A stretch of DNA of 36,644 bases from a virus: positions 15,150 through 51,793 of IMG/VR virus record IMGVR_UViG_3300030085_003125; one strand, written 5' to 3'. Both the position numbers and the translations under genes were made by a program. The notes under the pieces are model-generated. The model did not search any database, was not told the origin of the DNA, and saw only the letters and a list, made by a program, of their open reading frames with translations. Shown here one piece after another: positions 9,396 through 26,552 of the stretch (within the stretch, counting starts at the first letter, position 1; every line of letters starts with the position of its first letter).

Positions 9396-10207
9396 TTTAC
9401 TTCCGGTCTACCTTGTCTATATTTATTCCAATTTTCATATTCTTTTACTAAATGGTCTAAATCACCTTGATTTCTTTTTCTTTGTAAATACCATTTCAAC
9501 CACTCTTCGTCTTTCATCCTTTCCTCACCAAATTCTTCAATCCATTTGTCCCTATGTTTTTCAGGATGAGGTTGACTATATCCAAATTCTTCTGTTGAAT
9601 CTTTTGAAAAACCTTGATTCTTTTTCCTCTGACCATGATAGAATCTTATATCAGCATCAGTATATGGCATACGAGTTCTGTTTTTTAGGTCTTGCATAAA
9701 GATATCACCTGATGACCAAGGCGAATAAGTCTTGAATACATCAGCATAACCTTTAGTCCACCCCCAAGTATCAGGTAAAGTCTTTTTCATGTTGTAACAT
9801 TTTAGTCCTATTACTGCTGGAATTTCCCACTTACCATTAAGTCCTTTTAAATCAGACAATTGTTGTTTGAGTCTGACATCCCATTCTGAATGTTGACAAA
9901 TTAAATCATCGGTCATAGCAAAAGCGATGTCTTCTGTTTTAGATATCTCTCTGTTTATTCTATCTGGCACGTTATTCCATCCACAAGGTCTGTCGTAAAT
10001 TATTTCAATACCACCACCTAAAAATTTTCCATTTTTTAAAACATTATTCCAAGCATCATATGTATTTTTAGTTTCCACATCATCATCATCAGCTAAGATA
10101 ACTACTCTTATATTCTCAGGATGTTTAGCTTTTAGAAGCCAAGATAATATTGTACCAATCATAAAGGATGGTCTTTTTCTAGTAGGTAAGAAAATGGTTG
10201 TCTTCAT
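9392..10207 (-). CDS. GT-A glycosyltransferase-like protein, paralogue of 11796-12596
   Basis: A 271-residue protein starting MKTTIFLPTRKRPSFM. The ATG at 10205-10207 is chosen because it makes an ATGA overlap with the PfkB kinase gene; a longer frame adds 14 residues lying inside that gene. Motifs: VVILADDDDVET (acidic patch), IAFAMTDDLICQHSEWD (DxD-like metal site), and DADIRFYHGQ with a C-terminal basic region HRDKWIEEFGEERMKD. The same architecture, including a DKW/DKYGEE-type tail, occurs in 11796-12596, so the two are paralogues flanking the kinase-cupin group. Probably a GT2-like transferase. Confidence 0.68.
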   Translation of the reverse strand: MKTTIFLPTRKRPSFMIGTILSWLLKAKHPENIRVVILADDDDVETKNTYDAWNNVLKNGKFLGGGIEIIYDRPCGWNNVPDRINREISKTEDIAFAMTDDLICQHSEWDVRLKQQLSDLKGLNGKWEIPAVIGLKCYNMKKTLPDTWGWTKGYADVFKTYSPWSSGDIFMQDLKNRTRMPYTDADIRFYHGQRKKNQGFSKDSTEEFGYSQPHPEKHRDKWIEEFGEERMKDEEWLKWYLQRKRNQGDLDHLVKEYENWNKYRQGRPEVK

Positions 10208-10959
10208 ACAGTAGAAACCCCATGTTTTTGTACCACAATTTTGGTACACTCTTGAGCAAAATCGATAGCCTTTTCAATGTCATTTGTTTTTAAATATTTT
10301 ACAACTAAACCAGCAATAAAAGTATCCCCAGCGCCTGAGATATCTTTTACAAGAACATCCTCTGTTGGATATATTCTACCTTGAAAAAGACAACCCTCGT
10401 TTCCTTTGGTGACGATAGTTTTATCCATTATGTCATTGTCTTTGAAAAACTTTTTATTTGACTCGTACTCCGATGAGTTTATTTTTAGGTAATCAACATC
10501 ATTTATCCAATCACCAAGTTCTTTTTTAGTGTCAACAAATACATTGATATTGTTTTTAGCAATATATTCTATATCATCTTCATGTAAAAAACCTTTACAA
10601 TAATCTGATATGATTATAGCACCTACCTCTACTTCTCCACCCAATCCTATTCTACACTTGTTACCCTTTGGTAATTCAACAGCAACTCTATCACAATAAT
10701 CATGTTCATCTACCCTTAAAACCAATTGTTTTGATTTTTCGTCCACATATCGTACTTTTTTAATACTATTAGGATTTGTTATGGTGTATATTGTACATCC
10801 TAAAGCCTCAACATTATTAGCCACATTCTTTGCCATCCCATCATTACTTAGTTCCCTATTTGGATTAAAGACAGGAACAGGTGCCTCTGGTGTCAATCTA
10901 TTGATGTAACCATACACAAAAATATCTTTACAACTATCTCCTATTATTAATACTTTCAT
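10204..10959 (-). CDS. PfkB-family sugar kinase, HldE/RfaE N-domain-like
   Basis: A 251-residue kinase. The N-terminal INRLTPEAPVPVF (19-31) is a hallmark of heptose-7-phosphate 1-kinases (HldE N-domain, RfaE1), followed by GMAKNVANN (41-49) where the family has GGAANVA. The catalytic DISGAGDTF (206-214) carries the anion hole and base D212. HldE kinase domains are about 310 residues; this one is about 60 shorter and lacks the nucleotidyltransferase domain. In the host, HldE phosphorylates D-glycero-D-manno-heptose 7-phosphate toward ADP-heptose for LPS core. The phage enzyme might boost heptose supply or act on a related sugar phosphate. It overlaps a cupin gene by 4 bp. Family firm, substrate inferred. 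Confidence 0.78.
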   Translation of the reverse strand: MKVLIIGDSCKDIFVYGYINRLTPEAPVPVFNPNRELSNDGMAKNVANNVEALGCTIYTITNPNSIKKVRYVDEKSKQLVLRVDEHDYCDRVAVELPKGNKCRIGLGGEVEVGAIIISDYCKGFLHEDDIEYIAKNNINVFVDTKKELGDWINDVDYLKINSSEYESNKKFFKDNDIMDKTIVTKGNEGCLFQGRIYPTEDVLVKDISGAGDTFIAGLVVKYLKTNDIEKAIDFAQECTKIVVQKHGVSTV

Positions 10960-11405
10960 TTTTTATCTCCTAATCCGTTATCCCTTTCAAACTCTTCTAC
11001 ACTCTTCCAAACTTCTGCTTGACTATCTCCTGGTAATACTCTATAGGAATCTGAATCCTCATGGTGAGTTGACACCTCAAATATTCTACCATCTGTTAGA
11101 GCTTCCAACTGATGTGGTTGACCAGGATATTGTCTGACCACCCAACCAGGTTCTAATGTCAAAGTGGTTGGTAATGCATTTTCAGTATCAATAAACGTGT
11201 ACCTAAACTGACCTTCTTCTACCCACCAAGTCTCATCTTTTTTCATGTGGTAGTGCATTGAAAATTTACAACCCTTGTTAAATACTAATATCTTTCCACA
11301 ATACAATTCATTGTTCTCTATGATTATTTCCTTACCCCAACCCTTTGGAATGTGACAAGCCTCTTCCATGTAGACTGGTGTTTTTATGTCCCCATGCTGT
11401 AACAT
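10956..11405 (-). CDS. Single-domain cupin, mannose-6-phosphate isomerase-like
   Basis: A 149-residue cupin with metal ligands H51 and H53 (SMHYHMKKDE), E58 and H98 (YPGQPHQLEA), in the order of cupin motifs 1 and 2. KGWGKE near residue 21 recalls the KPWG motif of type II phosphomannose isomerases. Possible roles are sugar isomerisation or epimerisation, or metal-dependent sugar binding. The ATG at 11403-11405 overlaps the previous stop as TAATG, so I use it and not a TTG two codons earlier. It is cotranscribed with the HldE-like kinase, which suggests they act on the same sugar phosphate. Confidence 0.75.
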   Translation of the reverse strand: MLQHGDIKTPVYMEEACHIPKGWGKEIIIENNELYCGKILVFNKGCKFSMHYHMKKDETWWVEEGQFRYTFIDTENALPTTLTLEPGWVVRQYPGQPHQLEALTDGRIFEVSTHHEDSDSYRVLPGDSQAEVWKSVEEFERDNGLGDKK

Positions 11406-11806
11406 TACCAACTAATCTCCCAATCCTTGAACTCGGCAGCAATACAATCTATCTTGTAGTCTTTTCTACCACCATCTTGTAATTGGTCTTGTATGATATT
11501 TTTAGCAGTATTTCTAATACCATTTAATCCATGAGTCAAACCAAGATTCCCATCACCTTCACCAGCTCTGTACTTGGTTTCGTTATGCCAGATATGTAGA
11601 TTCATTTGAGCCAATACTATAATAGCTCTTATCATTTCACCACTTGGTTTTTCCCAATTCATAACTTGATTTAAGTCATGAACTATGTCTTCAATTTCCT
11701 TAGCGTACTCTTCCTTATGTTCCGTAATGAAAACCTCTTTTAACTGAATGATAGAAAGTCTGTCTATCAACTCAGCCACAGTAGGTAAGTATTTTCTATT
11801 TGCCAT
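11405..11806 (-). CDS. Conserved hypothetical protein (133 aa)
   Basis: A 133-residue, mainly helical protein. It opens MANRKYLPTVAELIDRLSI, followed by QLKEVFITEHKEEYAKEIED; proteins with a similar LPTVxELIDRLxIxxLKE start occur, to my recollection, in sugar and LPS clusters of marine phages and bacteria, with no known function. The tail has RNTAKNIIQDQL and a final KDWEISW. There are no cysteines and no membrane segment. It sits between the cupin and a GT gene with overlaps of 1 and 11 bp. A small accessory or regulatory protein for the neighbouring enzymes is possible. Confidence 0.6.
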   Translation of the reverse strand: MANRKYLPTVAELIDRLSIIQLKEVFITEHKEEYAKEIEDIVHDLNQVMNWEKPSGEMIRAIIVLAQMNLHIWHNETKYRAGEGDGNLGLTHGLNGIRNTAKNIIQDQLQDGGRKDYKIDCIAAEFKDWEISW

Positions 11807-12596
11807 AATAATCCTTAAATTTTTTAACTATTGAATTATACTCATCACCTAATTCGTCATGATGGAATCTATATAATTCATTCTTATGTTTAGTAGACTC
11901 CACCCACTCTGAATCTTTTATTAGTTCTTCCCCATACTTATCCACCCACAGTTGTTTATCTTTTTCTACCGATGGTGGTTTCCTATGATTTTCTATATAG
12001 TCTTTTGGTAGGAATCCTAACTTTCTCTGTAAGTGCCATACATCTACTTTTGGTCTAATTATAGCAGCACCAGTATCTCTAGCCATATCCCTAACATACG
12101 AATCAGTACCAGGAGTTATTGTATATTTTCCTGCAATATCTAACCATTTTCTATTTAGACCATACATGTCAGGATGTTGTTTCTCATTGTTTTTTCCACA
12201 CATCCACACCAATATCGACCTATCCTTACCATCTTTATCATAAACTTTATTTACATCATTACTAATTATTCTATCCCAACCAGGAGTAGTCACATAATTG
12301 TCGTCACATATTATCAACAACACTTCACCCTTGTAATGTGGTAACATTTGATTATTTCTTTTATATAAATTAATATAACCCATAGGTGGCCAAGTTATCA
12401 AACTTGAACTAGCTCCAAAAAATGTAATAATATGTTGTATATCATTATAAGTCTTAATAGACTCTTTATCGTCATCATCTAAAGCAATAACAAAATCTAA
12501 GTCCTCTTTAATATCTGCAGTTGTCAACCAATTTATTATAGTAGCAGATAAATAATTTGGTCTACCTCGTGAAATTATACCTATGGACAATTTCAT
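11796..12596 (-). CDS. GT-A glycosyltransferase-like protein, paralogue of 9392-10207
   Basis: A 266-residue protein opening MKLSIGIISRGRPNYL, the start of a GT2-like fold. VIALDDDDKES is the acidic patch, LLIICDDNYVTTPGWD the DxD-like site, and the C-terminal part (VDVWHLQRKLGFLPKDYIE, then LWVDKYGEELIKDSEW) mirrors the paralogue at 9392-10207. It overlaps the RMD-like gene by 4 bp and the small hypothetical gene by 11 bp. Likely cytoplasmic sugar transfer, donor unknown. Confidence 0.68.
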   Translation of the reverse strand: MKLSIGIISRGRPNYLSATIINWLTTADIKEDLDFVIALDDDDKESIKTYNDIQHIITFFGASSSLITWPPMGYINLYKRNNQMLPHYKGEVLLIICDDNYVTTPGWDRIISNDVNKVYDKDGKDRSILVWMCGKNNEKQHPDMYGLNRKWLDIAGKYTITPGTDSYVRDMARDTGAAIIRPKVDVWHLQRKLGFLPKDYIENHRKPPSVEKDKQLWVDKYGEELIKDSEWVESTKHKNELYRFHHDELGDEYNSIVKKFKDYYGK

Positions 12597-13564
12597 ACTT
12601 TACTTCTCCAATATTTTAATAAGTCCTCACAAACATTAGTCAAGTTTTTCATTGGTGTCCACCCAAACTCATGTCTAAATTTAGAGGTATCTGGTATCTG
12701 TAATGTAATATCCGTAGGTCTAAGTCTAGCCTCATCTAATTTCTTTTTCAAATCTTTTTTAGTAGACATACTGATTAACTTATCTAAGGCATCACCAACA
12801 GTACAAGTTTGTTCACCACCTATGTTGTAAACCTCTCCAAACTTTTTACTATTAGAACACACCCAATAAGCACTTATCGCATCATCAACGTGAGCATAGG
12901 TTCTCGTTGAGTCTAAATTACCATGATATATGAATTGTTCTCCTTTGAGTTTTTCAGCCTTGGCAATCTGATAAGCAAATGATGACAGAGCAAACTGTTT
13001 ACCCCTACGAGCACCCTCATGACTAAACATACGAGTTATGATAATCTTCATGCCATGTGCCTTATGATAATACTGAGACATTAAATCATGTCCGACCTTT
13101 GATATCGAATATGGATTCGCAGCTCTGATAGGATTGGTTTCTTTGATTGGAACTTCATCCTCTTCTGGCATGCCATAAACCTCACTTGTTGATATACTGA
13201 CTATGACAGGATCGTAATCTGATTCCTTAATTGCCTCTAATAAATGTGTAGTTCCAAGTGTGTTTGTCTGTAACGTTATAACTGGCATCTTAAAACTAAC
13301 TTCGGGAAAACTCTGAGCAGCAAAATGAAATACCTTTTCAGGTTTAGAAACCTCTACTGCCCTTCGAATACTATGAGCATCAAGTAAATCACAATCAACA
13401 AACTCAAGTCTTTCATCATCGATGTGGTCAACATTTTTAGTGTCTTCCATCCATCGTTTTGTACAGTATACCTTTTGGTCTGGTCTTATGGCATATTTCA
13501 ATATGTAATCAATCATATGACTACCGACAAAACCTGTACCACCCGTTACTAAAATATTACGCAT
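12593..13564 (-). CDS. Extended SDR, Gmd/Rmd-like sugar nucleotide dehydratase or reductase
   Basis: A 323-residue extended SDR. TGGTGFVGSHMID (7-19) is the NAD(P) loop, ISTSEVYG (124-131) the active-site serine/threonine region, and Y152-x3-K156 (NPYSISK) the catalytic pair. RMFSHEGARRGKQF and LDSTRTYAHVDDA are typical of the Gmd/Rmd branch, as is ARLRPTDI near the C-terminus. Rmd reduces GDP-4-keto-6-deoxy-D-mannose, the Gmd product, to GDP-D-rhamnose, which would make sense with gmd in the same island; a second dehydratase is the alternative. It overlaps the Fcl-like gene by 8 bp. Confidence 0.82.
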   Translation of the reverse strand: MRNILVTGGTGFVGSHMIDYILKYAIRPDQKVYCTKRWMEDTKNVDHIDDERLEFVDCDLLDAHSIRRAVEVSKPEKVFHFAAQSFPEVSFKMPVITLQTNTLGTTHLLEAIKESDYDPVIVSISTSEVYGMPEEDEVPIKETNPIRAANPYSISKVGHDLMSQYYHKAHGMKIIITRMFSHEGARRGKQFALSSFAYQIAKAEKLKGEQFIYHGNLDSTRTYAHVDDAISAYWVCSNSKKFGEVYNIGGEQTCTVGDALDKLISMSTKKDLKKKLDEARLRPTDITLQIPDTSKFRHEFGWTPMKNLTNVCEDLLKYWRSKV

Positions 13565-14525
13565 TTATAACCTCTTCATAATGATTCAATGTTTTTTGTA
13601 TACCTTGTTCAATAGATATTTTAGGAGTCCAACCAAACAAGTTTTTAGCTCTACTAATGTCTAATGCTAACTTATTACCAAAACTTGGTTTGGTTTTATC
13701 ATACCTAATATACAAATCTTTTTTATAAATATCAACAACTTTTTTGACCAACTCAGATATTTCTATTCCACTACCAATACCCACGTTTATTAGCTCAAAT
13801 TGTGACTCTTGTTTCATAACCTTTTCCACACAACTAACTAAATCCTCCACATGAAGTAAATCTCTTTTTTCCTTACCCTCACCCCACACTACGATTTCCT
13901 CAATAGCATTTACTACTTTTACTATTGTCGCAGCAAAAACATGACTACGTTCTAAATCAAATTTATCATAAGTTCCATAAATGTTAGATTGTCTTAGAAC
14001 AGTAAATTTAGTTTTGCCTAAATCAGAATAAAATTTACACATCTTTTCGAGATAAAGTTTGGTGTTACCAGCTCCATAATATTTAGAGAATATATCAACG
14101 TTTTCATCCACATCAGTTTCTTTTAATAACTCATCACTTGATTGATACATTAGAGTGCAACTTGGAAAGATAAAATGACCAACCTCTTTTTCAAAAGCTT
14201 CTCTCATCAATAAAGAATTCATCACCGCATTATCAGTCACATGCACATATGGTTTACTAACTATGTCTTTAGCACCAGAAGTTACGGCAGCATATTGTAA
14301 GATAACGTCAATATCTGAAGTAACTATTCTTTGAACATCTTTTGAGTTTGTTAAATCACCTTGTACCCACTCGACATTACGATAAAGTTCAGTTATATTA
14401 GCGTTCTTATGCCACACAGCTTTAACCTCAAATTCCTCTTCAGAAAAGTGTCTAGCTCTTGTAAAATTATCTAATAAATTTCTACCTATAAAACCAGAAG
14501 AACCACATATTAATATCTTTTTCAT
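13557..14525 (-). CDS. GDP-fucose-synthase-like epimerase/reductase (Fcl/ColC type)
   Basis: A 322-residue extended SDR. CGSSGFIGRNLLD (7-19) binds NADP. S122 and C123 (FPSCTLMY) match the Ser and Cys of GDP-L-fucose synthase, and H195 in LERSHVFAAT matches its catalytic His. Fcl and ColC epimerise and reduce GDP-4-keto(di)deoxyhexoses to L-fucose or L-colitose. The usual Y-x3-K appears here as Y150-G-A-G-N-T-K156, i.e. Y-x5-K, a two-residue insertion relative to YGATK. With gmd and the ColD-like gene this is the best candidate for the final colitose step. The 4 bp overlap with the next gene ties it to an oxygenase. Confidence 0.76.
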   Translation of the reverse strand: MKKILICGSSGFIGRNLLDNFTRARHFSEEEFEVKAVWHKNANITELYRNVEWVQGDLTNSKDVQRIVTSDIDVILQYAAVTSGAKDIVSKPYVHVTDNAVMNSLLMREAFEKEVGHFIFPSCTLMYQSSDELLKETDVDENVDIFSKYYGAGNTKLYLEKMCKFYSDLGKTKFTVLRQSNIYGTYDKFDLERSHVFAATIVKVVNAIEEIVVWGEGKEKRDLLHVEDLVSCVEKVMKQESQFELINVGIGSGIEISELVKKVVDIYKKDLYIRYDKTKPSFGNKLALDISRAKNLFGWTPKISIEQGIQKTLNHYEEVINA

Positions 14526-16112: not shown

Positions 16113-16810
16113 GGTCTAAACTCCTCTGGTCTTCCATCAATTATTAACTCATCCCAATCCTTACCTGTTTGATGTTCGTTATATATTTGTTTTGCAACAT
16201 CATATGGTTCAAGTCCAAAGGTATGTTCTTTTACAGTTTTAATCTGTGTTGGATAGACATTGATTAATTTAACGTTATAATCTTCTGCCTCAATTCTTAG
16301 ACTCTTTGTAAAACCTTTCAAACCCCATTTGGTGGCAGAATGAACGCTTCTGTACTTCTTTGGCTCTTTACCAACTACCGAATTAATGTTTATGATTGAA
16401 CCATGTCGTTGTTCTTTTAATAAAGGATAAATTTTTTGTGTTAGTCTAATTGGTGATATTAAGTTAGTCTCAATACTTTCATACACCTGCATTGGTTTCA
16501 TCCCATCTAAAGGTAACCCATAACAAGGTATAGCAGCGTTATTGACTAAAACATTTATAGAGTGTCTTCTACTGGCTCTATATAGTTCATCCAATACTAA
16601 CTCCGACCTTAAGTCGCCGACCACCATATCCACAACTTGTGAATTTATTTCGAACTTAGTATCATGTAACTTTTTTTCGTCTCTACCATGTAATATTATT
16701 TGATAACCATGAAAAGCAAATTCTTTTGCTATTGCCTTACCAAGACCTTTACTTGAGGCAGTTATCAGTACACATTTATTGGTATCTTGCGTCGCTCCCA
16801 AATGGTTCAC
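16109..16810 (-). CDS. Classical short-chain dehydrogenase/reductase, catalytic Tyr replaced by His
   Basis: A 233-residue classical SDR. ITASSKGLGKAIA (16-28) binds the cofactor, NNAA (90-93) is the structural motif, and S144 lies in ININSVVG. The catalytic pair is H157-S-A-T-K161, where the family has Y-S-A-T-K; the serine to histidine spacing is the normal 13, so the tyrosine itself is replaced. Activity may be lost or altered, or H157 may act as the acid. The start is GTG at 16808-16810 with AAGGA about seven bases upstream and a 35 bp overlap with the radical SAM gene. The substrate is presumably a sugar or keto intermediate made by neighbours. Confidence 0.82.
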   Translation of the reverse strand: MNHLGATQDTNKCVLITASSKGLGKAIAKEFAFHGYQIILHGRDEKKLHDTKFEINSQVVDMVVGDLRSELVLDELYRASRRHSINVLVNNAAIPCYGLPLDGMKPMQVYESIETNLISPIRLTQKIYPLLKEQRHGSIININSVVGKEPKKYRSVHSATKWGLKGFTKSLRIEAEDYNVKLINVYPTQIKTVKEHTFGLEPYDVAKQIYNEHQTGKDWDELIIDGRPEEFRP

Positions 16811-18827
16811 TTGTAATCCTTATAACTGGTAATTTTGATTTTTTCTTACGTTTTTCTTCTGTAACTAAACAATCGTATAGATATGCACCTTTTTTATTAG
16901 ACCACCATACAACTTTTTCACACCAATCTTCCCAAGAATCCCATGTATCACTTGTTCTGTCGATGTAATATGTGAAGTCACCTTTTTTTAATGAAGCTTT
17001 TCTACCTAACAATGTCTCAGTATAAACGTCTAATATATTTGAACTCAATTTAATTTCTATATCTTGAGTTTGATTAGGTAATTTTATTAAACTCTTGTTT
17101 AACAATATTGATTCAGATATGACTTTATCATAACTTCTTTTTCTAAATTTTGTTTTCTCTTTAAACACCTTGTATAATATATCTTTAGCATCTATGTAGA
17201 AATCATCTAATCTGTCTTCGGTCACAGCTTTAATAAAAGCTATCTCATCTGGCGGCCACCATATATTTAACCATCTCTCTGAACTCATGAACTCAGGACC
17301 ACCATTTTGCATCTCACGAGCATGTTTGTAAAACACACTAATTAAGTCCGAAAAAGCACCTGTTTTTGACTTTTCCTCTGTCGTAAAAGCCCTAAATAAA
17401 TCTGTGTAATCAATATCATAAACACTATTTGCAATAATAATTGGTATCTGAAATAATTTATTGAAGTGTAAGAAAGCGACCACATATCCAAACACACGAG
17501 TCTTTACCCACTCTTCACCTGGCATAGACTTTGTACCAACAATCATCTGTTGTGTTTCGTAAATATCATCTAACCATTCACCTAAAGCACCATGAATATT
17601 TATGATGTCGTTCTCTACAACTTTCATCTCATATTTTTCTAAGTATTCAGGATCTCCCATCTCAGTATTTGGTAATATACTTAAATTATTAAACTGAATT
17701 CTATTGTGTTGTCCCATCTTAACTAACTTACCAACACCCTCTGTAAAACTTTCATAGGTTTCTTCTGGTAAACCTAAGATAATATCTGAAAATGTTTTGA
17801 TACCATCTTTCATAAACTTTGCTTGTAAGTCATAAAATACACTAAGTTTAATATTAGACCTTTTTATTGCCTTCAAGGTTTTAGGATCGAGTGATTGAAA
17901 TGCGATTAGAGCACCTTTACTTAATCCTGTATCTGCTAGTAGTTTCTGAACTTGATAAGAAACCTCGTTAGAATTTTTAGTGTTCTGTACAGACAAGGCT
18001 TCTGGATAACCATACTCTTCTTTATTTTTCGCAAACTTTTCTACTATTGGTAAATCTCTATCTTTATACATACCAAAGTTAGCATCACAAGTAAAGATAA
18101 ACTCTATTTTGTTTTTACTGAACCAATCTATCTCCTCATATAATCTACCCTCTAAATCATACTTGGATACTTTCTTTTTAAACCCAACACCCCAATCACA
18201 AAAAGTACATGAGAAAGGACAACCTCTGTTTGTTTCCCATAATCCAATCCACCTTTCATCGGGATTATCTCTCACTAAACCATCAAAATATCCTTCGATA
18301 AATGGTGATGGAATCTCGTTCATATCCTTGATTCTTTCTGCCTGTGGTGTGGTGATTAGTTTATCTCCATCTCTGTAAATTAACGATTCTACTTCACCCC
18401 AATTTCCAGTTGGATACTTTTCTAAGAAATCGGTGAATACTCTCTCACCCTCTCCAATTGAAGCGATATCAAGATATGGATTATCTGCCATATACTTTTC
18501 AATATATTCAGGTCTTTCTGGTATATGACATCCACCAGCAATAGTTAAGATATTAGGATTAACCTCTTTTAGAGCCTTTGCTATCCTCATGGATATGTTA
18601 TTGTTCCAAACGTAAACACTAAACGCAACTATGTCACAATCTTTATATTGTTCAACTGCATCTTTTATTGGAACTCTTTTATATATTGGATTTAAGAAAT
18701 CATAATCGTTGAAGTTCTTACAATGAAACTCAGCATATGATACCAAAAATCCAAGAGACAAAGGTAGATAGTTTTGACCAGAAAAACTATTGTTTACTTG
18801 AATCATTCCTATCTTATATTTTTTCAT
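16776..18827 (-). CDS. B12-binding radical SAM enzyme, possible C-methyltransferase
   Basis: A 683-residue protein. Residues 1-140 resemble a cobalamin-binding domain (GMIQVNNSFSGQNYLPLSLG, then AGGCHIPERPEYIE and SIGEGERVF) without the DxHxxG motif, as in class B radical SAM methylases. NRGCPFSCTFCDWG gives C203-x3-C207-x2-C210, the [4Fe-4S] ligands that cleave SAM. The C-terminal 250 residues are unlike standard domains. This class methylates or rearranges unactivated carbons and often works on sugars or cell-wall precursors. It could C-methylate an NDP-sugar of the island. The overlaps of 35 and 14 bp place it firmly in the operon. Confidence 0.84.
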   Translation of the reverse strand: MKKYKIGMIQVNNSFSGQNYLPLSLGFLVSYAEFHCKNFNDYDFLNPIYKRVPIKDAVEQYKDCDIVAFSVYVWNNNISMRIAKALKEVNPNILTIAGGCHIPERPEYIEKYMADNPYLDIASIGEGERVFTDFLEKYPTGNWGEVESLIYRDGDKLITTPQAERIKDMNEIPSPFIEGYFDGLVRDNPDERWIGLWETNRGCPFSCTFCDWGVGFKKKVSKYDLEGRLYEEIDWFSKNKIEFIFTCDANFGMYKDRDLPIVEKFAKNKEEYGYPEALSVQNTKNSNEVSYQVQKLLADTGLSKGALIAFQSLDPKTLKAIKRSNIKLSVFYDLQAKFMKDGIKTFSDIILGLPEETYESFTEGVGKLVKMGQHNRIQFNNLSILPNTEMGDPEYLEKYEMKVVENDIINIHGALGEWLDDIYETQQMIVGTKSMPGEEWVKTRVFGYVVAFLHFNKLFQIPIIIANSVYDIDYTDLFRAFTTEEKSKTGAFSDLISVFYKHAREMQNGGPEFMSSERWLNIWWPPDEIAFIKAVTEDRLDDFYIDAKDILYKVFKEKTKFRKRSYDKVISESILLNKSLIKLPNQTQDIEIKLSSNILDVYTETLLGRKASLKKGDFTYYIDRTSDTWDSWEDWCEKVVWWSNKKGAYLYDCLVTEEKRKKKSKLPVIRITSEPFGSDARYQ

Positions 18828-19731
18828 TCCTATACCAATTTATGGTTTCTTTAATTCCCTCTTCTAATGAAACACTTGGTTCATATCCAAATGATTTTGC
18901 CAAACGAATATCCATAATTCTAACCTTATCACCAGATGGTTTTGTCGTGTCCCAAATTACTTCAGGTTTATCATCTACATTTTCTAAAATAACTTCAACC
19001 AATTCCTTAATTGAAAATCCACCACCACTACCTAAGTTTACAGGACTTGTAGCTCCTGGTGACTTTTCCATAACTAACATCATACCTTTTGCAATATCCC
19101 TACAATGTGTAAAGTCTCTGACATTTGAACCGTCTCCCCATAGTGTTATTTGTTTCTCACCACTAAGTATTTTCTTTATCAAAGATGGAACAACCATCGC
19201 ACCATCCGAATCAAAATCGTCATGTGGTCCGTATGTATTACCAGGTCTGACAATAGAGATACCATTCCACCCATATTCAATTTCATATGATTCCGCCTGT
19301 AATTCACCTATTCGTTTAGCCCATCCAGCAAATCTATCATTTGGTGATGGAAATGTTCTCCAAACATCCTCTTCTTTGAAGACTTCGTCTGGCTCATATA
19401 CAGCAACAGAACTCGTATATAAATATTTGTTAATACCACTTTCCCTTGCAGCTTCCATCAAATTTGTGTTAAATCTTAACATCGGAACTAAATGACTTGC
19501 TGGTCTTTCTTGCATAGCTTTTGGTGAACCCTTGATACATAACAGATTAAATACATAATCCATATCATAACAAGCATCTAAACATTTACCATAATCTGTC
19601 AAATCCATTTCAGGATCTAAATTTTTATCTACTACTTTTACACTAGCTCCTCTATGTTCTAACAACTTTACAAGTTGTTTACCTATCAAACCATTCCCAC
19701 CAGCTACTAATACGTTTTTACTTTTATACAT
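18814..19731 (-). CDS. NAD-dependent epimerase/dehydratase with unusual active site
   Basis: A 305-residue extended SDR. VAGGNGLIGKQLV (9-21) is the Rossmann loop and YLYTSSVAVYEP the active-site serine region. The catalytic site reads R-F134-A-G-W-A-K139-R, with phenylalanine or alanine where a tyrosine would stand four residues before the lysine. VRPGNTYGPHDDF and LWGDGSNVRDFTHCRD are typical of the Fcl/GalE superfamily. It may be a 4-keto-hexose reductase or epimerase or have lost one step of the reaction. It overlaps an oxygenase gene by 8 bp, a pairing also seen at 13557-15349. Confidence 0.72.
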   Translation of the reverse strand: MYKSKNVLVAGGNGLIGKQLVKLLEHRGASVKVVDKNLDPEMDLTDYGKCLDACYDMDYVFNLLCIKGSPKAMQERPASHLVPMLRFNTNLMEAARESGINKYLYTSSVAVYEPDEVFKEEDVWRTFPSPNDRFAGWAKRIGELQAESYEIEYGWNGISIVRPGNTYGPHDDFDSDGAMVVPSLIKKILSGEKQITLWGDGSNVRDFTHCRDIAKGMMLVMEKSPGATSPVNLGSGGGFSIKELVEVILENVDDKPEVIWDTTKPSGDKVRIMDIRLAKSFGYEPSVSLEEGIKETINWYRNEKI

Positions 19732-20416
19732 TTTTCCCCACTATTATGTTTGTTGCAATTACTATTCTGTCTTCTTCTCCAAAATAAGGTTGTGCATTAT
19801 GACTTAAATGTGCTGGAAAAAATAGACATCCACCATTATCCATAGGTGGTGACCATACAGCGTACTGATGTTCAAAAAAATTACCAAAGTCTATATACTG
19901 ATTATCAACTGGTTGACTAATAGTATTTTTACCACCATTATTTTCATTAACTCCATCAATTTTCAAGTAATATATTCCACCCCAAGATGTCATCGGATGT
20001 CTATGGTTACCATGCCAACTACCTTTACCATTTGCAATATGAACCCACGAATCTCTTAGATTAATATTTATATCTTTTTTTTCGAGACCATCCATCGTTT
20101 CGGATACTCCCTCTGGATAATAACTATTTTGAAAGTAGTCTAAAAAACAAAACAAAAATTGTTCTTTGATATATTGTTCTATTTTACCTATAGATTTATA
20201 ATTTTTAAGTCTTGACTTCTGAAAAAAATCAAACTCAGATTCATATAAATTAGTTTTTATACCATGAGCAACTTCTGTTCTATTTTTATTATCAGTATGA
20301 AACTGAAGACATTCTGTGATAGCATCATTTCTTATGTCATCGTAATCAGGATCTTTACTATACCAAATAGGTACTGCCCATTTATTCCAATATGAATAAT
20401 TAGATATGTTAGCCAT
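19724..20416 (-). CDS. 2OG-Fe(II) oxygenase, 2OG-FeII_Oxy_5-like
   Basis: A 230-residue protein matching the phage oxygenase pattern NxHxH...GxYYLK...FPxxLxH...Rixia. Metal ligands are H138/H140 (HGNHRHPMTSWGG), then FFPAHLSHNAQP with H206, and R217 (GEEDRIVIATNI) for 2-oxoglutarate. Members are widespread in cyanophage and pelagiphage genomes, where substrates are mostly unknown. This copy overlaps the SDR at 18814 and the E1 beta gene by 8 bp each, which suggests it acts in the same sugar pathway. Confidence 0.8.
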   Translation of the reverse strand: MANISNYSYWNKWAVPIWYSKDPDYDDIRNDAITECLQFHTDNKNRTEVAHGIKTNLYESEFDFFQKSRLKNYKSIGKIEQYIKEQFLFCFLDYFQNSYYPEGVSETMDGLEKKDININLRDSWVHIANGKGSWHGNHRHPMTSWGGIYYLKIDGVNENNGGKNTISQPVDNQYIDFGNFFEHQYAVWSPPMDNGGCLFFPAHLSHNAQPYFGEEDRIVIATNIIVGKNV

Positions 20417-21317
20417 TGACTAACTCTAAAACCTTATTAATAATTTTTTTAGGCGTAGGTGGTAAGTTATCTACATCCTTATGAAAACCAGCAGTTCTGT
20501 TTTCCAATCCCATTGTATATACTTTCTTATCAGATTCCAACATCATACGATGTGCAATACTACTGGCAACACCTTGTTCGTAATCATCATCCAATACGAT
20601 ACCACCAAACTTTGAACTATTTAATTGTCTTTTCCATATTTCTGTAAAAAGAAATGGTTTAATCCATAACTGATGAATTATACTAGCCTTTATCCCTTGT
20701 TTCTCTAATTCTTTTCTAGCTTCTTCGGCATCAAATCTTGTAATTGAAATTGGAAATAAAACAACATCAGGTTCATCATGAAATACATCTCCTAACTCTT
20801 CTGTATTATCATAACTTCTTCTATGTTCTGAGACATAATATACGTCATCCTCTTTCATAAAACTTTTATAAGCAAACTCATATTCCTTTGGTGTCATTGG
20901 TGATATTATCTTTGTACCTGGCATTCTTTGATATAATGAATGATGTGATGAACCAGCAACAGGACCCATACCACCTTCCATAGCAATACTTCTGATAAAT
21001 ATTGGGCAAGGTCTATCCCATACCTCTTTTGATTTTGAAGCATAATTCACTATCATGGGCGAATTGTACCATTGAAATCCTTGATATCTCACCACATAAA
21101 TCGGTCTAATACCTTGTAGTCCAGCACCAACAACGAACCCACCATTTGCTACATCAGCCGTAGTAACCTCTACCATCCCTTCATCTTCATACATCTCAGG
21201 TAAAGTTCCACCTACCCAACCAACTGCGGTAAGACATTGACCAAAACACAAACCATTTTTTTCGGTAAGGTGTTTTCTTGTTATCTCTTTTATTGTTTCT
21301 CTAACTGTCTTTGCCAT
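20409..21317 (-). CDS. ThDP-dependent 2-oxoacid dehydrogenase E1 beta-type subunit
   Basis: A 302-residue transketolase-like protein with the pyrimidine-binding and C-terminal domains of E1 beta: GGFVVGAGLQGIRPI (59-73), then SHHSLYQRMPGTKIISPMTP. In active PDH-type E1 beta the glutamate of the GE(E/D) motif binds the N1' of thiamine; here the equivalent reads FGQC, with Q27 in its place. That would weaken normal ThDP activation, unless another residue serves. The E1 alpha partner follows with a 28 bp overlap. No E2 or E3 gene is present, so a free carbon-carbon transfer rather than a PDH complex is likely. Product unknown. Confidence 0.75.
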   Translation of the reverse strand: MAKTVRETIKEITRKHLTEKNGLCFGQCLTAVGWVGGTLPEMYEDEGMVEVTTADVANGGFVVGAGLQGIRPIYVVRYQGFQWYNSPMIVNYASKSKEVWDRPCPIFIRSIAMEGGMGPVAGSSHHSLYQRMPGTKIISPMTPKEYEFAYKSFMKEDDVYYVSEHRRSYDNTEELGDVFHDEPDVVLFPISITRFDAEEARKELEKQGIKASIIHQLWIKPFLFTEIWKRQLNSSKFGGIVLDDDYEQGVASSIAHRMMLESDKKVYTMGLENRTAGFHKDVDNLPPTPKKIINKVLELVNG

Positions 21318-22132
21318 AATTCCGTTATCAATTTTTTATTTTGTTCGTGTATCTTTTTACCCTCGTCACCAAGTTGTCCCATCTCATGTTCATATCTATC
21401 AAAGACATCAACATCATCTATACCAGCTCCAGCATGCCAATACTTTCTTATCGTGTTTATGTTTAACAACATCGGTTTTTCAAAGACACCTAATTTAAGA
21501 TACATGGGTATTTCATATGGATTGTCTGGTAAATCATGAGCTTCCATACCAAAACCGCGAGCTACTTCATGCATATCCCAACTGCGTCTTACCGACTTTT
21601 CAGTAAGAATAGATAAGTTATTGTCTTCAACTACAAAAAGTATAGGTAGATTCTTCGTAACTGCCCACCCTATACTACTGAAGACATAATCTTCTTCCGC
21701 AGATGAATCACCCATGAACACAATCGTTGGTCTTTGAGATGCATAACAAGAACCTACAGCAATAGGAACTTGACTACCCATCAAACCATCATGTCCGTAA
21801 ATATTTTTCTCTTTACTATGTATTGAAGCAGAACCACCCATACCGTTAGCACACCCACTTTTTCTACCCAACAACTCATCAATCAATTGAACCACATCTC
21901 CACCAAAAGACAAATATGTAGCATGTCCTCTGTGTTGAATAAAAATATCTGGTTCCATATCAAGGAATGTTTCTTCCATATATTGAGCAATAGTAGCAGG
22001 TATAAACTCTTGACCAACTGAAAGATAAGTTGGATACTGAATAGTTTTATCTTGTAATTTATTAAATACTACCTCATCAAAGTTCCTACACAACGAGGCT
22101 TTTTTAAATATTTCTATTTTATCCATAATCAT
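21290..22132 (-). CDS. ThDP-dependent 2-oxoacid dehydrogenase E1 alpha-type subunit
   Basis: A 280-residue protein with the E1 alpha diphosphate-binding motif GDSS (141-144) to NN (171-172), i.e. GDx(27)NN, which binds ThDP and Mg. HRGHATYLSFGG and GMGGSASIH fit the family's conserved loops. Two ATGs (22130-22132 and 22124-22126) are possible; I report the first. Together with E1 beta it should form an alpha2beta2 ThDP enzyme. Such pairs make an acyl- or hydroxyalkyl-ThDP carbanion that could add a two- or three-carbon unit to a keto-sugar. Only about 340 residues would be expected for a full PDH E1 alpha, so this is a shortened version lacking part of the regulatory regions. Confidence 0.82.
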   Translation of the reverse strand: MIMDKIEIFKKASLCRNFDEVVFNKLQDKTIQYPTYLSVGQEFIPATIAQYMEETFLDMEPDIFIQHRGHATYLSFGGDVVQLIDELLGRKSGCANGMGGSASIHSKEKNIYGHDGLMGSQVPIAVGSCYASQRPTIVFMGDSSAEEDYVFSSIGWAVTKNLPILFVVEDNNLSILTEKSVRRSWDMHEVARGFGMEAHDLPDNPYEIPMYLKLGVFEKPMLLNINTIRKYWHAGAGIDDVDVFDRYEHEMGQLGDEGKKIHEQNKKLITELWQRQLEKQ

Positions 22133-22802
22133 AAATGTGATTTAAATTACGTCTTTTAATTGTCATTATTAAAGTGTTTGTTTGTATGTGTGGAAATAGT
22201 TTAATCAATCTTTTAACTATTGCACAGGTAACCACATCACCAGCTTGTGCGACCATATTACTTTCTCCATCTTCAATACCACCATCTAAAAATACTATGT
22301 TTTCATCATTATCTTTTCCGTTGAACTGACTCACGTCATTTATCGTCTCAACCTTTATATCACAATTACTAAACTCGTACTCTCTATCTCCATCTTCTAT
22401 CCAAAGACAATCATTTTGTTTCGGTGTCTCATGTGTACTATCTTCATATGGATTTCCCTCTCTACCGTATTTATCTTCGAGTCTAACCAAATCATGTTTG
22501 TCTACAGGAGTTTCTATCTCAAATACACAAGCACCATTTTTAGATGTGGCTTTTGTCGAATGAAATAAACCCTTTCTAATCATTGTTTTAGATACAGGTT
22601 TTAAATCAAACGAATCATTCAAAAAAGATATTTGAGCTTCACCATCCAATAATATCAGACCAGTTGTTTTGTTCGGATGACAATGCATAGATGTCTGTTG
22701 GTCATGTCCAATGTACAAAAACCATAGGGCTACTTTCTCGTTTTGATAGGCGAGATATTCATAACCCCACGGTTTTGAAACTACTGTTTTTTCATACGGC
22801 AT
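22119..22802 (-). CDS. Cupin, type II phosphomannose isomerase-like
   Basis: A 227-residue protein. SKPWGYEYLAYQNEK (9-23) is the KPWGxE start of mannose-6-phosphate isomerase type II cupins, with metal ligands H40 and H42 (MHCHPNKTTG) and H81 (KGLFHSTKA). The C-terminal 100 residues lack cupin motifs and may be a second domain. It could isomerise or epimerise a sugar phosphate or keto-sugar, or bind a sugar. It sits between the ThDP pair and a DJ-1-like gene with overlaps of 14 and 11 bp. Confidence 0.75.
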   Translation of the reverse strand: MPYEKTVVSKPWGYEYLAYQNEKVALWFLYIGHDQQTSMHCHPNKTTGLILLDGEAQISFLNDSFDLKPVSKTMIRKGLFHSTKATSKNGACVFEIETPVDKHDLVRLEDKYGREGNPYEDSTHETPKQNDCLWIEDGDREYEFSNCDIKVETINDVSQFNGKDNDENIVFLDGGIEDGESNMVAQAGDVVTCAIVKRLIKLFPHIQTNTLIMTIKRRNLNHIYDYG

Positions 22803-23331
22803 TGTTAATCTCTATAACCTTATTCATCCATTGTCCCATCCATTTATAATGTGGGCAACAAACAAGATTATCAGAAACTACATACTCTGCATCAACAAAA
22901 TTACCACCCGCATTAATCAAATCATCTTTGATACTATAATAACCAGAAACATCACGACCAGTAACTATCTCAGCAGATATTAACATCTGACCACCATGAC
23001 AGATTGAACCAATAGTTTTACCTAAGGCATCCCACTCTCTTATGAAATTTAAGGCTGATTCTTCTTGTCTTAGTTTTTCAAGGGATTTGACACCACCAGG
23101 AATAATCAACAAATCATAATCATGCATATAGTCTTCAAACTTTTCATCATCATCTAAATCAAATACTGACTTAGTACATTCATTATATGTTCCAAGTATA
23201 CCGTGAATCATACCTACTTTATTAGACATGATATCAACTTCATATCCACTTTCTTGTACCCTATAATAAGGATAGATAACTTCGTGGTCTTGATACTTTT
23301 CCCAAGTTAATATTAGTGCTTTTTTACTCAT
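22792..23331 (-). CDS. DJ-1/PfpI-family protein
   Basis: A 179-residue protein with a flavodoxin-like fold. DLLIIPGGV (73-81) and GSICHGGQMLI (108-118) contain the nucleophile C111 and adjacent H112 of the DJ-1/PfpI class. Members include glyoxalases, deglycases and chaperones; hydrolysis of isocyanides or sugar-derived aldehydes is also known. In a keto-sugar and ThDP cluster it may handle a reactive carbonyl intermediate or side product. ATG at 23329-23331, preceded by GGAG six bases upstream; one base separates it from the ColD-like stop. Confidence 0.8.
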   Translation of the reverse strand: MSKKALILTWEKYQDHEVIYPYYRVQESGYEVDIMSNKVGMIHGILGTYNECTKSVFDLDDDEKFEDYMHDYDLLIIPGGVKSLEKLRQEESALNFIREWDALGKTIGSICHGGQMLISAEIVTGRDVSGYYSIKDDLINAGGNFVDAEYVVSDNLVCCPHYKWMGQWMNKVIEINNAV

Positions 23332-23332
23332 T

Positions 23333-24496
23333 TTAAACTCCGTTAAGTTTATGTGTTAAACTTCCAATCTCATACAAAGATAATTCAGGATGATTACCAA
23401 TGTATAATCCAAAATCATGTATGTGGTCTACGTTTGACAAATCATGTGCTACAAAATCATACTTGTCTAAGTATGGTTGTCTTGCCTGATTACCACCACC
23501 CGCAGTTCCCACTCGATATTCGACTTTTTCTTCGTCTAATAATATACAACATTTTTTGAACAATTCCAAGTCTTTTTCTTTTAAAATTAATGGTAATGCA
23601 AAATTACTATTACCATTCTGTTCGTAATTAACAAAGAATTTCTTCTCGTCTAAATTATCCAACCAATAATTAAAATTCTCACTTCGTTTTTTACAATTAA
23701 AATCTAATCTTTTTATCTGTTCTAAACCCAATACAGCATTTATCTCTTGATTCCTAAAGTTATATCCAGGCACAGCAAAGGTAAACAACGGATTCAAATC
23801 AGGTCTACTTCTTTCGTATTGTTCTTGAACCTCACTTGACGCCTCTCTTGTCATTCCATGTGACCTAAATAATTTAGCGTAATCCCATAACCTATAATCG
23901 TTAGTACACACCATACCACCTTCGATAGTAGTTATGTGATGTCCAAAGTAAAAAGAGAAGTTAGATACGTCTCCGAATATACCAACCTTATCTCCTTTAT
24001 GAGTCGCACCATGAGCCTCACAACAATCCTCAATCAAAAACAAATCATTATCTCTACAGAAATGTACCATAGCATCTGTTATAGCATTAAATCCTAAAAC
24101 ATGAACTATTGATACTCCTACAGTCTTATCTGTAACAGCTTTTTTTATGTTATCAAGTGTAATTGACATATTATCCATACTTACGTCAACGAATACAGGA
24201 GTAAAACCTAAGTTAACAAGTGGTGAAACATCAGAAACCCAACCTAAAGGTGAAACAATAACTTCACCAACACCTTTCTGTTCTTTCATGATTGACGCCA
24301 TAATGTAATTAGCTGAAGCACCTGAATTAACATATGTACTATGTGCACAACCTATGTATTTAGACCACTCCATTTCAAATTCTTTACACTTCTCACCATT
24401 AGTAAATTTTTGGTTTGGTGTGTTAATAAAATCTGTCATAGCTTTTCTATCACCATCTGTGATACTATCGTTTATTAATTGCCAAGAAAATCCCAT
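23333..24496 (-). CDS. colD: ColD-like PLP-dependent 3-dehydratase (His replaces PLP lysine)
   Basis: A 387-residue DegT/DnrJ-fold protein starting MGFSWQL. The ATG at 24494-24496 has AGAGG six bases upstream; an upstream start adds nine residues and is rejected. The active-site motif reads SFYFGHHITTIEGG with H186 where aminotransferases have the Schiff-base lysine. That substitution defines the ColD/RfbH(E1) group, which removes the C3 hydroxyl of GDP- or CDP-4-keto-6-deoxyhexoses. D157 (IEDCCEAHG) should bind the PLP pyridine nitrogen. Length and the ending IGNHPELSLYEIG also fit ColD. With gmd it should convert GDP-4-keto-6-deoxymannose to the 3,6-dideoxy keto-sugar. Only the preference for GDP versus CDP sugar is uncertain. 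Confidence 0.86.
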   Translation of the reverse strand: MGFSWQLINDSITDGDRKAMTDFINTPNQKFTNGEKCKEFEMEWSKYIGCAHSTYVNSGASANYIMASIMKEQKGVGEVIVSPLGWVSDVSPLVNLGFTPVFVDVSMDNMSITLDNIKKAVTDKTVGVSIVHVLGFNAITDAMVHFCRDNDLFLIEDCCEAHGATHKGDKVGIFGDVSNFSFYFGHHITTIEGGMVCTNDYRLWDYAKLFRSHGMTREASSEVQEQYERSRPDLNPLFTFAVPGYNFRNQEINAVLGLEQIKRLDFNCKKRSENFNYWLDNLDEKKFFVNYEQNGNSNFALPLILKEKDLELFKKCCILLDEEKVEYRVGTAGGGNQARQPYLDKYDFVAHDLSNVDHIHDFGLYIGNHPELSLYEIGSLTHKLNGV

Positions 24497-24506
24497 GTTA
24501 TACCTC

Positions 24507-25139
24507 TTATCTAAACATTCCAATTAAAGTTTTTCTGTCCTCTTTTGCAAAAGGGTTAGTTGGTGTTATCCAATGTGACATATCCAAACCATGATTTATA
24601 ATAACTAACCTATTTGACTTTGGTAAAATAGTCATTATCTCATTATCTGGTGGTTTCAAATAGTGTAGTAATCCACCCCAATCATATTTCCAATTTGTCT
24701 TATTCATATAAACTATAAAACCGATTTTAACCCCCCAATCTGAACCATCTCTGTGAGCTCTAGCATAACTATCTCCATTTTTTTCATAAATATTAGCATG
24801 AGATTGTAATAAAGTAACTCTCCTCTGTAATATAAATTCTACTACTGGCGTAACATTTTCTTTGATAATTTTACTTACCTCTGGTAGTTTTGGAACTTCT
24901 TTGGATAACTTAAGATTACATTTATACATCTCATCTCTATCTGGCCAATGTATATCATTTTTATCAAAAGTTGAACCTGTCCATTTTTCATAATGAGGAC
25001 GCTCGTGATTATTAGTTTTGAAACTTTCATGATTCCAAAAGTTAGAAACTTTATCGAAAGTCTCTTGTTCTAAAAAATCATCGAAATAAACCATTCCATT
25101 GTTTTCAAAATCATATTTTATTTGTTCTTCGTTAGTCAT
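24507..25139 (-). CDS. Fe(II)/2-oxoglutarate-type oxygenase
   Basis: A 210-residue protein with H129-R-D131 (YARAHRDGSDWG) as metal pair, H183 or H189 (IINHGLDMSHWITP) as the third ligand, and R202 (FAKEDRKTLIGMF) as 2-oxoglutarate ligand. This matches prolyl-4-hydroxylase-like oxygenases. It lies directly upstream of the ColD-like gene, ten bases apart, and the RBS of that gene lies in this gap. A sugar-modifying hydroxylase is the simplest idea. Substrate unknown. Confidence 0.74.
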   Translation of the reverse strand: MTNEEQIKYDFENNGMVYFDDFLEQETFDKVSNFWNHESFKTNNHERPHYEKWTGSTFDKNDIHWPDRDEMYKCNLKLSKEVPKLPEVSKIIKENVTPVVEFILQRRVTLLQSHANIYEKNGDSYARAHRDGSDWGVKIGFIVYMNKTNWKYDWGGLLHYLKPPDNEIMTILPKSNRLVIINHGLDMSHWITPTNPFAKEDRKTLIGMFR

Positions 25140-25155
25140 GATATTTTCCCGTTAC

Positions 25156-26076
25156 TTATGATATTACATCATTTATATGTGCAGTTGGTATTTTGTCATA
25201 CTTATCATTTTTAAATTTCTCATAACACTCTTGTAGTGTCTCAGTTGCTTCGACTAAAGTTTCATTACCTACTTTTAGTACCTCTTCTTTTGGTCTATGT
25301 TTAACATCTTTTAAGTATACGTTTTTATCTAATAACTCAGTACATGCTAGTTTTATACTAAAATCTATGGACACTCTCAAACCACCATCTTCTTTTAATG
25401 TTCTATGTAAACATTGATGGTCAAAAATTGTCATACAACCGAAATTTAGTTTACCTAAATATTCGGGATAATCATATAAATTTGTTCCATCTTCATAGTT
25501 CGGTAACGTGTCATAAAATTCATCTCTCATACCTATTGGTTTCCAAAATTCTAACGAGGTTGTTTCGTCTCCAAGTAAAGCAGTAGTAACCATAGCGTCC
25601 CCATACTGACCAGACCAAGCATCAGAATGAAGTTTTACGGTAGCAGAATTTCTTTTATCCAAATCTGTTCTTCTACCATCGACTATCCTAACAGTACACA
25701 TATCATATGATTCTATTTGGTCTATAAGACCAGTCTCTACTATTGTCGAATTTACTATACTCTGTAATATGTTATACTCTTTTATATTTTCTTTCTTTGG
25801 ATAAAATGCTCCATTAGGTGTTCTGTTAGGTAATCCTAAAATATCATCCCTATAGTCTATCAAAAAATTAGTATTTCCCTTTTTAAATTTTTTATCGTAA
25901 AAAGAGTTTAATGTAGTTATGATATAATTTTCAAGAGCCATCTGTAAAGAACACTCTTGGTCACGATTTAAATTTATTTCCAATTGAATACCATTATCAG
26001 TTCCAAGGTCAAGACTTTTTCTAATATCCTCATAGATGTGAAACCTACGTTTATAAGTTTTACCCCATTGTCTCAC
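25156..26076 (-). CDS. Fe(II)/2-oxoglutarate-like oxygenase
   Basis: A 306-residue protein with H150-S-D152 (ATVKLHSDAWS), H224 (CLHRTLKEDGG) and R234 (LRVSIDFS) in the order of the 2-His-1-carboxylate oxygenases. The start is GTG at 26074-26076, supported by AGAGG and a TAGTG overlap with the previous stop. The N-terminal 140 residues and last 60 are unlike known domains, so the substrate cannot be guessed. It is adjacent to an RmlC-like epimerase and a second oxygenase. Confidence 0.7.
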   Translation of the reverse strand: MRQWGKTYKRRFHIYEDIRKSLDLGTDNGIQLEINLNRDQECSLQMALENYIITTLNSFYDKKFKKGNTNFLIDYRDDILGLPNRTPNGAFYPKKENIKEYNILQSIVNSTIVETGLIDQIESYDMCTVRIVDGRRTDLDKRNSATVKLHSDAWSGQYGDAMVTTALLGDETTSLEFWKPIGMRDEFYDTLPNYEDGTNLYDYPEYLGKLNFGCMTIFDHQCLHRTLKEDGGLRVSIDFSIKLACTELLDKNVYLKDVKHRPKEEVLKVGNETLVEATETLQECYEKFKNDKYDKIPTAHINDVIS

Positions 26077-26552
26077 TACTTATCCCTCTTAGATAGTATT
26101 GGATTATCTACAGGCCAATCAACCCCAATCATCGGGTCATCCCATTTGATTGTAAATTGTTCTTCAACGTCAGGATATTCACCCTCATAGCTCCACTTGT
26201 AATGAAATACACAACTATCGCTCATGACCAAATGTCCGTTACCAACACCAGGTGGAATCAAGACTTGTTTTCTAGTCTTATCATCTAAAATTAAAGACTC
26301 CCACATTATGTATGTATCGGAAGTTGGTCTGTTATCCACAAGCACAAAGTAAAGTGAACCTTGTAAACAAGTAACTAACTTCCAAGATTTAGTATCACCG
26401 TGTATTCCTCGTAACACACCATATCCTGAAGTGGATACCTTGTCATGATTGAATTCCATATCCCATTCTTCTTTTTTCCAAGTAGTCCAATAGTCACCTC
26501 TGTAATCAGTAAAGACATCTGGCTGAACTACTTTTACACCATTAATTAACAT
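26076..26552 (-). CDS. RmlC-like sugar epimerase (dTDP-4-dehydrorhamnose 3,5-epimerase family)
   Basis: A 158-residue RmlC-type cupin. GVLRGIHGD (45-53) carries the catalytic base H51 (family LRGLHxQ), VLIPPGVGNGHLV (97-109) is the conserved glycine-rich loop with H107, and HYKWSYEGEYP holds the tyrosine region (Y118/Y122). RmlC enzymes epimerise C3 and C5 of 4-keto-6-deoxy NDP-sugars. Canonical RmlC is about 180 residues; this is a short form. In C. jejuni capsule heptose synthesis, similar epimerases act on GDP-4-keto-heptoses, so a GDP-sugar substrate made by gmd is possible. ATG at 26550-26552; 11 bp overlap upstream. Confidence 0.84.
   Translation of the reverse strand: MLINGVKVVQPDVFTDYRGDYWTTWKKEEWDMEFNHDKVSTSGYGVLRGIHGDTKSWKLVTCLQGSLYFVLVDNRPTSDTYIMWESLILDDKTRKQVLIPPGVGNGHLVMSDSCVFHYKWSYEGEYPDVEEQFTIKWDDPMIGVDWPVDNPILSKRDK

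Follow-up and report, generated by a model that had tools for sequence, protein, structure and literature searches.

The 36,644-nucleotide stretch analysed here (the window) comes from a 56.6-kb IMG/VR virus record and encodes a protein of the DegT/aminotransferase fold with a histidine, H186, at the position of the Schiff-base lysine. This raises the question of which reaction the protein catalyses, on which sugar, and what becomes of the product. The initial annotation read it as a ColD-type 3-dehydratase acting on GDP-4-keto-6-deoxymannose. As judged by the genes found with it in about 150 viral and bacterial relatives, the phage enzyme probably works on an activated seven-carbon sugar instead and passes its product to a ThDP carbon-joining enzyme.

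The phage and its sugar island

The source virus is a marine T4-like phage. Beyond the window, the record encodes a T4-type DNA polymerase, PhoH and ThyX. Microcystis phage Mel-JY01 has a polymerase 46% identical to the one in the record, compared with about 31-34% for Synechococcus phages, and a DNA-level search found no near-identical annotated phage. The end of the record holds the C-terminal part of a TonB-dependent receptor beta-barrel (PF00593; L013:4789-5655, positions 55788-56654 of the virus record), a fragment unusual for a T4-like phage that may stem from contamination or a chimera.

The window is mostly a one-strand sugar and glycan island with many glycosyltransferases (Table 1). 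Such islands are known from pelagimyophages, where they have been taken to modify the O-chain and thereby perhaps prevent co-infection (PMC7029224). The dehydratase ORF runs on the minus strand from its ATG start at 24496 to 23333, an in-frame TTG extension reaching 24523, and is followed by overlapping or abutting genes for a DJ-1 protein, a cupin, E1-alpha, E1-beta, a 2OG oxygenase, an Fcl-like SDR and a B12 radical SAM enzyme. Oxygenases of the 2OG-Fe(II) or PhyH kind are predicted at 2768-3430, 14522-16112, 19724-20416 and 24507-26076, some called by Pfam and some by relatedness or by eye. The names given here to the dehydratase, the SDRs and the HddA-like and HddC-like proteins denote the nearest family only, because none reached an NCBIfam equivalog cut-off.

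Table 1. Features of the window; functions are predicted.
Feature	Position	Strand	Evidence
ColD-like PLP/PMP 3-dehydratase, 387 aa	23333..24496	-	Pfam, PDB matches, AlphaFold2 model, tree
H186 codon, equivalent of ColD H188 (aminotransferase Lys position)	23939..23941 (read 23941-23939)	-	alignment with ColD H188N/H188K chains
DJ-1/PfpI family protein, next gene after the dehydratase; conserved with the E1 pair in relatives	22792..23331	-	
Cupin, weak mannose-6-P isomerase C-domain match; conserved with the E1 pair	22119..22802	-	
ThDP enzyme alpha subunit, PDH E1-alpha-like, GDS...EDNN motif	21290..22132	-	
ThDP enzyme beta subunit, PDH E1-beta-like; Asp55 at the catalytic Glu position (codon 21155-21153)	20409..21317	-	
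2OG-Fe(II) oxygenase, within the same overlapping gene run	19724..20416	-	
GDP-fucose-synthase-like SDR, candidate C4 or side-chain ketoreductase	18814..19731	-	
B12-binding radical SAM enzyme, 683 aa, same gene run	16776..18827	-	
RmlC-like cupin epimerase, candidate C3/C5 epimerase	26076..26552	-	
DmhA-like 4,6-dehydratase; best PDB match GDP-D-glycero-D-manno-heptose 4,6-dehydratase	12593..13564	-	
PfkB kinase like HldE domain I (D-glycero-beta-D-manno-heptose-7-P kinase)	10204..10959	-	
Cupin linked with the heptose module	10956..11411	-	
Conserved small protein of no family, linked with the module in 56 viral loci	11405..11806	-	
Canonical GDP-mannose 4,6-dehydratase (Gmd), separate hexose route in the same island	6711..7670	-	
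Second GDP-fucose-synthase-like SDR	13557..14525	-	

Active site and fold of the predicted dehydratase

The protein matches PF01041 in Pfam (E 4.9e-67) and contains SFYFGHHITTIEGG. The residue changed in the ColD mutant chains H188N and H188K of the PDB aligns exactly with the first histidine of the phage HH, so H186 is the equivalent of ColD H188, and alignment to solved structures placed no Schiff-base lysine there. Motif and histidine are thus as initially annotated, with the strand as the only addition. The alignment to ColD, RfbH and DegT aminotransferases and the structural model suggested at that time agree with the ColD likeness. By sequence, the best solved structures were ColD (2gms, E 1.7e-51) and then E1/RfbH (3bcx), with the lysine aminotransferases lower. 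The AlphaFold2 model (pLDDT 92.8) had ColD as its top Foldseek match (E 2.7e-33) and aligned with it in VIA-align at Z 49.1 and an rmsd of 2.2-2.4 over about 377 residues, compared with Z 47 for E1 and Z 45 and below for aminotransferases.

The presence of H186 at the lysine site is not due to chance, because the histidine is retained in all 156 related viral and bacterial loci examined, the bacterial half of this count being biased in that the scan pattern there could include HH. The cofactor-site residues S58, G59, D157, S181, N246 and R248 are intact and invariant. PHROGs labels the family aminotransferase (phrog_3139). A plain aminotransferase was ruled out, as the catalytic site has histidine and no lysine, and so was the E1/RfbH/SpnQ type, as the four-cysteine [2Fe-2S] motif is absent. 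Between RSHGMTRE and LFTFAVPGYN, where RfbH has CYCAPGC...CGKRF, the window dehydratase has no iron-sulphur cysteines and no counterpart of this segment, which is present in full in cyanophage S-H68 and in L173. The missing cysteines argue that the protein is very likely an iron-sulphur-free, ColD-like 3-dehydratase and not one of the E1 kind. The 2.6-kb contig L173 (OR851175.1), recorded as Salmonella phage S.Kent 1-2-1, carries a host-like rfbH gene and is probably host DNA.

In a quick tree with SH-aLRT support only, E. coli ColD is the sister of the whole dehydratase group, and RfbH/E1 and the lysine types lie apart; viral sequences make up most of the branch that holds the window protein, and the cyanophage ColD-like proteins form a different one. 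The window protein shares fold, length, histidine for the PLP lysine and lack of an iron-sulphur cluster with ColD (GDP-4-keto-6-deoxymannose 3-dehydratase; 2gms/3b8x), but it is only about 28% identical to it and belongs to a large, distinct clade of phage and bacterial dehydratases, whose partner 4,6-dehydratase is mostly DmhA-like instead of Gmd.

A 3-dehydratase in a phage is less exceptional than initially implied. Cyanophages S-CAM7, ACG-2014f and S-H68 already have ColD-like or E1-like genes, and the claim is not new in kind, because the public S-CAM7 record annotates a 3-dehydrase beside Gmd and GDP-fucose synthetase. Their cassettes differ from the window: S-CAM7 combines a true Gmd with Fcl-like and GT11 genes, the S-H68 enzyme is of the E1/RfbH type with the cysteine cluster, and no ThDP pair was seen in any of the three.

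Heptose or hexose as substrate

The 3-dehydratase assignment of the initial annotation stands, and with it a 3-deoxy-4-keto nucleotide sugar as the predicted product; GDP-4-keto-6-deoxymannose as the substrate is not favoured. The low identity to ColD, the position outside ColD in the tree and the DmhA-like and bacterial HddA-like partners of the clade all point elsewhere. The DmhA-like protein of the window has as its best solved match 7us5, the GDP-D-glycero-D-manno-heptose 4,6-dehydratase DmhA (E 1.2e-57), and groups with it by sequence; it is a predicted GDP-manno-heptose 4,6-dehydratase. Nearly all viral 4,6-dehydratases in the tree, this one (SDR12593) included, fall within a 77-row clade with DmhA (100/98), while the Gmd clade is limited to the second 4,6-dehydratase of the window, the cyanophage cassettes and a small number of others. 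The split from Gmd is well supported, but the position of individual long branches is uncertain.

The scans covered 88 viral loci, two of them annotated cyanophages, and 80 bacterial loci. An HldE-type heptose kinase is encoded in 49 of the 88 viral loci, often directly after the DmhA-like gene. An HddA-like kinase (a match to profile NF049969) was found in 56/80 bacterial loci and an HddC-like transferase (by best NCBIfam match) in 36/80, both below the equivalog cut-offs. Also common in these loci are RmlC-like cupins and Fcl-like SDRs, which correspond in type to the epimerases and reductases of Campylobacter jejuni heptose pathways (PMC7949155). Because the partner 4,6-dehydratases are DmhA-like and these heptose genes accompany them in bacteria and phages, a heptose appears the likelier substrate and a 3,6-dideoxy-heptose the likelier product.

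A series of C3-dehydratase, epimerase and reductase on GDP-heptose has been proven in C. jejuni HS:5 and HS:11 (PMC10440746). Like the window, these strains have a DmhA-group 4,6-dehydratase, a PLP-dependent C3-dehydratase and epimerase and C4-reductase candidates in one gene set. Their C3-dehydratase is 62-67% identical to ColD (PMC10440746), in contrast to about 28% for the phage protein, so that the phage clade would represent either an independent solution or an earlier split. The C. jejuni pathway lacks a ThDP enzyme, whereas the window has a ThDP pair but no recognised GDP-heptose supply: HddA, HddC, GmhA and GmhB were not recognised among the window ORFs scanned. GDP-heptose would therefore come from the host or from unrecognised genes, and with HddA, HddC and GmhA not found there, we claim no membership in a GDP-3,6-dideoxy-heptose pathway for the window alone. 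The distance of about 10 kb between the DmhA-like gene and the dehydratase, and the canonical Gmd in the island, likewise speak against the heptose reading. The statement that 3,6-dideoxy sugars are otherwise known from O-antigens also needs correction, as 3,6-dideoxy-heptoses occur in Campylobacter capsules (PMC10440746).

That the enzyme instead acts on GDP-4-keto-6-deoxymannose from the Gmd of the window, with an SDR completing GDP-colitose or a similar 3,6-dideoxyhexose, seems unlikely to us. In its favour, the island contains two GDP-fucose-synthase-like SDRs besides Gmd, no solved structure is nearer than ColD, and S-CAM7 and ACG-2014f have Gmd, Fcl-like, ColD-like and glycosyltransferase genes in a row. 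However, Gmd lies 16 kb from the dehydratase, the partner is DmhA-like in close relatives, and the cyanophage dehydratases form their separate branch without the ThDP pair.

Related ColD-like dehydratases are also encoded in the Pelagibacteraceae genomes L113, L161, L163 and L172. In L113 and L163, HddA-like and DmhA-like genes adjoin the dehydratase, and SAR11 cells may therefore make such heptoses themselves.

The adjacent ThDP enzyme pair

The most unusual part of the locus, missed by the initial annotation, is the adjacent pair of ThDP enzyme genes. By Pfam and NCBIfam, three architectures occur beside the dehydratase: the E1-alpha/E1-beta pair of the window; a split transketolase, as in locus L138 of beta proteobacterium KB13; and a short pair lacking the C-terminal domain, in which an E1-alpha-like protein (about 208 aa) is combined with a pyrimidine-domain protein (about 178 aa). 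HMM searches found a complete pair in 75 of the 88 viral and 37 of the 80 bacterial loci, whereas none of the 80 viral loci retrieved through lysine-type DegT genes had one. After clustering of the dehydratases at 70% identity, the pair accompanied 14/18 compared with 0/52 of the lysine type (p 1.6e-11). In the reverse fetch by ThDP genes, all readable DegT sites were histidine (64 near E1-beta, 48 near the short alpha) and none lysine, part of these sites coming from other His-type branches (HQ, HL, RfbH-like). Since the lysine-type control loci come from other virus kinds, a second control was run inside phage loci fetched by the HldE kinase alone; there, 25 of the 30 loci that have a His-type DegT also have the pair, compared with 6 of the 42 that lack one (p 5e-9). 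Both p-values are a guide only, as the loci are not independent by descent and the neighbours were counted in mosaic islands. The pair is absent from 13/88 viral and 43/80 bacterial loci, some of them cut by contig ends, and branching would therefore not be obligatory.

The window E1-alpha has the GDG...NN cofactor motif (as GDS...EDNN). Asp replaces the catalytic Glu in all phage E1-beta proteins aligned, whereas the bacterial E1-beta, the short beta and the split transketolase neighbours keep Glu; this change may slow or alter the enzyme.

Other His-type DegT branches (HHLSTIEGG, HQ and HL motifs) adjoin ThDP pairs as well (L204:10537-11691, L188, L281, L305, L236) and are likely further 3-dehydratase groups. 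A B12-binding radical SAM enzyme of about 507 aa lies next to or near the dehydratase in 33/67 bacterial and 16/88 viral loci (e.g., L143:11178-12701, L009:5131-6681, L011:6086-7606) and in none of the lysine-type DegT control loci; it perhaps serves C-methylation.

The split transketolase suggests another role for the pair, as enzymes of the transketolase type can make sedoheptulose 7-phosphate, a heptose precursor. The island would then yield an unbranched GDP-3,6-dideoxy-heptose as in C. jejuni HS:5, and the ThDP enzyme would serve otherwise, for example in the supply of sedoheptulose phosphate or another precursor. Clostridial loci with DmhA-like, ColD-like, Fcl-like and HddA-like genes and no ThDP pair are consistent with this. 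However, the other two architectures resemble PDH E1 and not transketolase, and within the heptose-kinase phage loci the pair tracks the 3-dehydratase and not the kinase, which makes this explanation rather improbable.

A proposed route to a branched heptose

ThDP enzymes join carbon to carbonyls, and the carbonyl common to all dehydratase/ThDP loci is the 4-keto group of the 3-deoxygenated sugar. Together with the precedents described below, this makes 3-deoxygenation followed by C4 branching the best reading. Glutamate would convert PLP to PMP on the dehydratase, and PMP would form a ketimine with the 4-keto group of an NDP-4-keto-6-deoxy sugar. H186 would take a proton from the cofactor, the C3 hydroxyl would depart, and hydrolysis would give an NDP-3,6-dideoxy-4-keto sugar. 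The substrate would more likely be GDP-6-deoxy-4-keto-heptose, formed by the DmhA-like enzyme, than GDP-4-keto-6-deoxymannose. The ThDP pair would add a branch at C4, the three architectures perhaps using different donors and attaching different branches, and the glycosyltransferases of the island would put the resulting 4-C-branched 3,6-dideoxy-heptose on a surface glycan. We consider the chances of this whole route, from 3-deoxygenation of a GDP-heptose to transfer, to be evenly balanced.

We infer C4 chain branching by the ThDP pair, as in yersiniose, by analogy. YerE branches C4 of CDP-3,6-dideoxy-4-keto-glucose, and E1-like pairs have been proposed to act likewise for avilamycin and paulomycin (PMC12247030, PMC4425429, PMC4753412), so that YerE, AviB1/AviB2 and Pau11/Pau12 are described or proposed enzymes for two-carbon branches at C4 (PMC4425429, PMC4753412). 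The phage is predicted to share with yersiniose synthesis a 3,6-dideoxy-4-keto sugar beside a ThDP carboligase. YerE, however, is a single-chain flavoprotein working on a CDP sugar, whereas the window has a two-subunit E1-like pair with GDP-type partners. AviB1/AviB2 and Pau11/Pau12 are, as in the window, E1-alpha/E1-beta-like pairs with deoxysugar genes, a likeness by gene type; they come from actinomycete antibiotic pathways, and the phage E1-beta differs in its Asp for the catalytic Glu. We know of no ColD-type enzyme in the avilamycin or paulomycin pathways. The nonheme iron enzyme AviO2 accompanies AviB1/B2 in avilamycin.

An inactive protein, or a sugar aminotransferase deprived of its lysine, is a highly improbable reading: the PHROGs name of the family and the ability of SpnQ to transaminate without its reductase (PMC8987622) would fit, but the histidine is conserved, the cofactor-site residues are intact, and the nearest structures are two known dehydratases.

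We found no open-licence paper that describes heptose genes and a ThDP pair together with a 3-dehydratase, whether in phages or in bacteria. What this analysis adds is the heptose assignment, the dehydratase clade and its link to three kinds of ThDP pair. We tentatively propose, at somewhat less than even confidence, that phages and diverse bacteria share an undescribed modular pathway to branched heptoses. In it, a divergent ColD-like dehydratase would form GDP-3,6-dideoxy-4-keto-heptose, and one of three interchangeable types of two-subunit ThDP enzyme would then attach a C4 branch, which would differ among the types; phages would carry the system for remodelling of host or virion surface glycans. 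If this holds, the dehydratases now listed as aminotransferases would form a new family of 3-dehydratases for GDP-heptose, and the two-subunit ThDP enzymes would be new ketone carboligases, an enzyme type sought for tertiary alcohol synthesis. Phages would then encode a pathway of several steps to a rare C-branched heptose, a kind of sugar for which very few enzymes are known. With a heptose dehydratase handing over to a ThDP enzyme, the phage may therefore build a rare branched surface sugar during infection and may in this way alter the receptor surface of its host.
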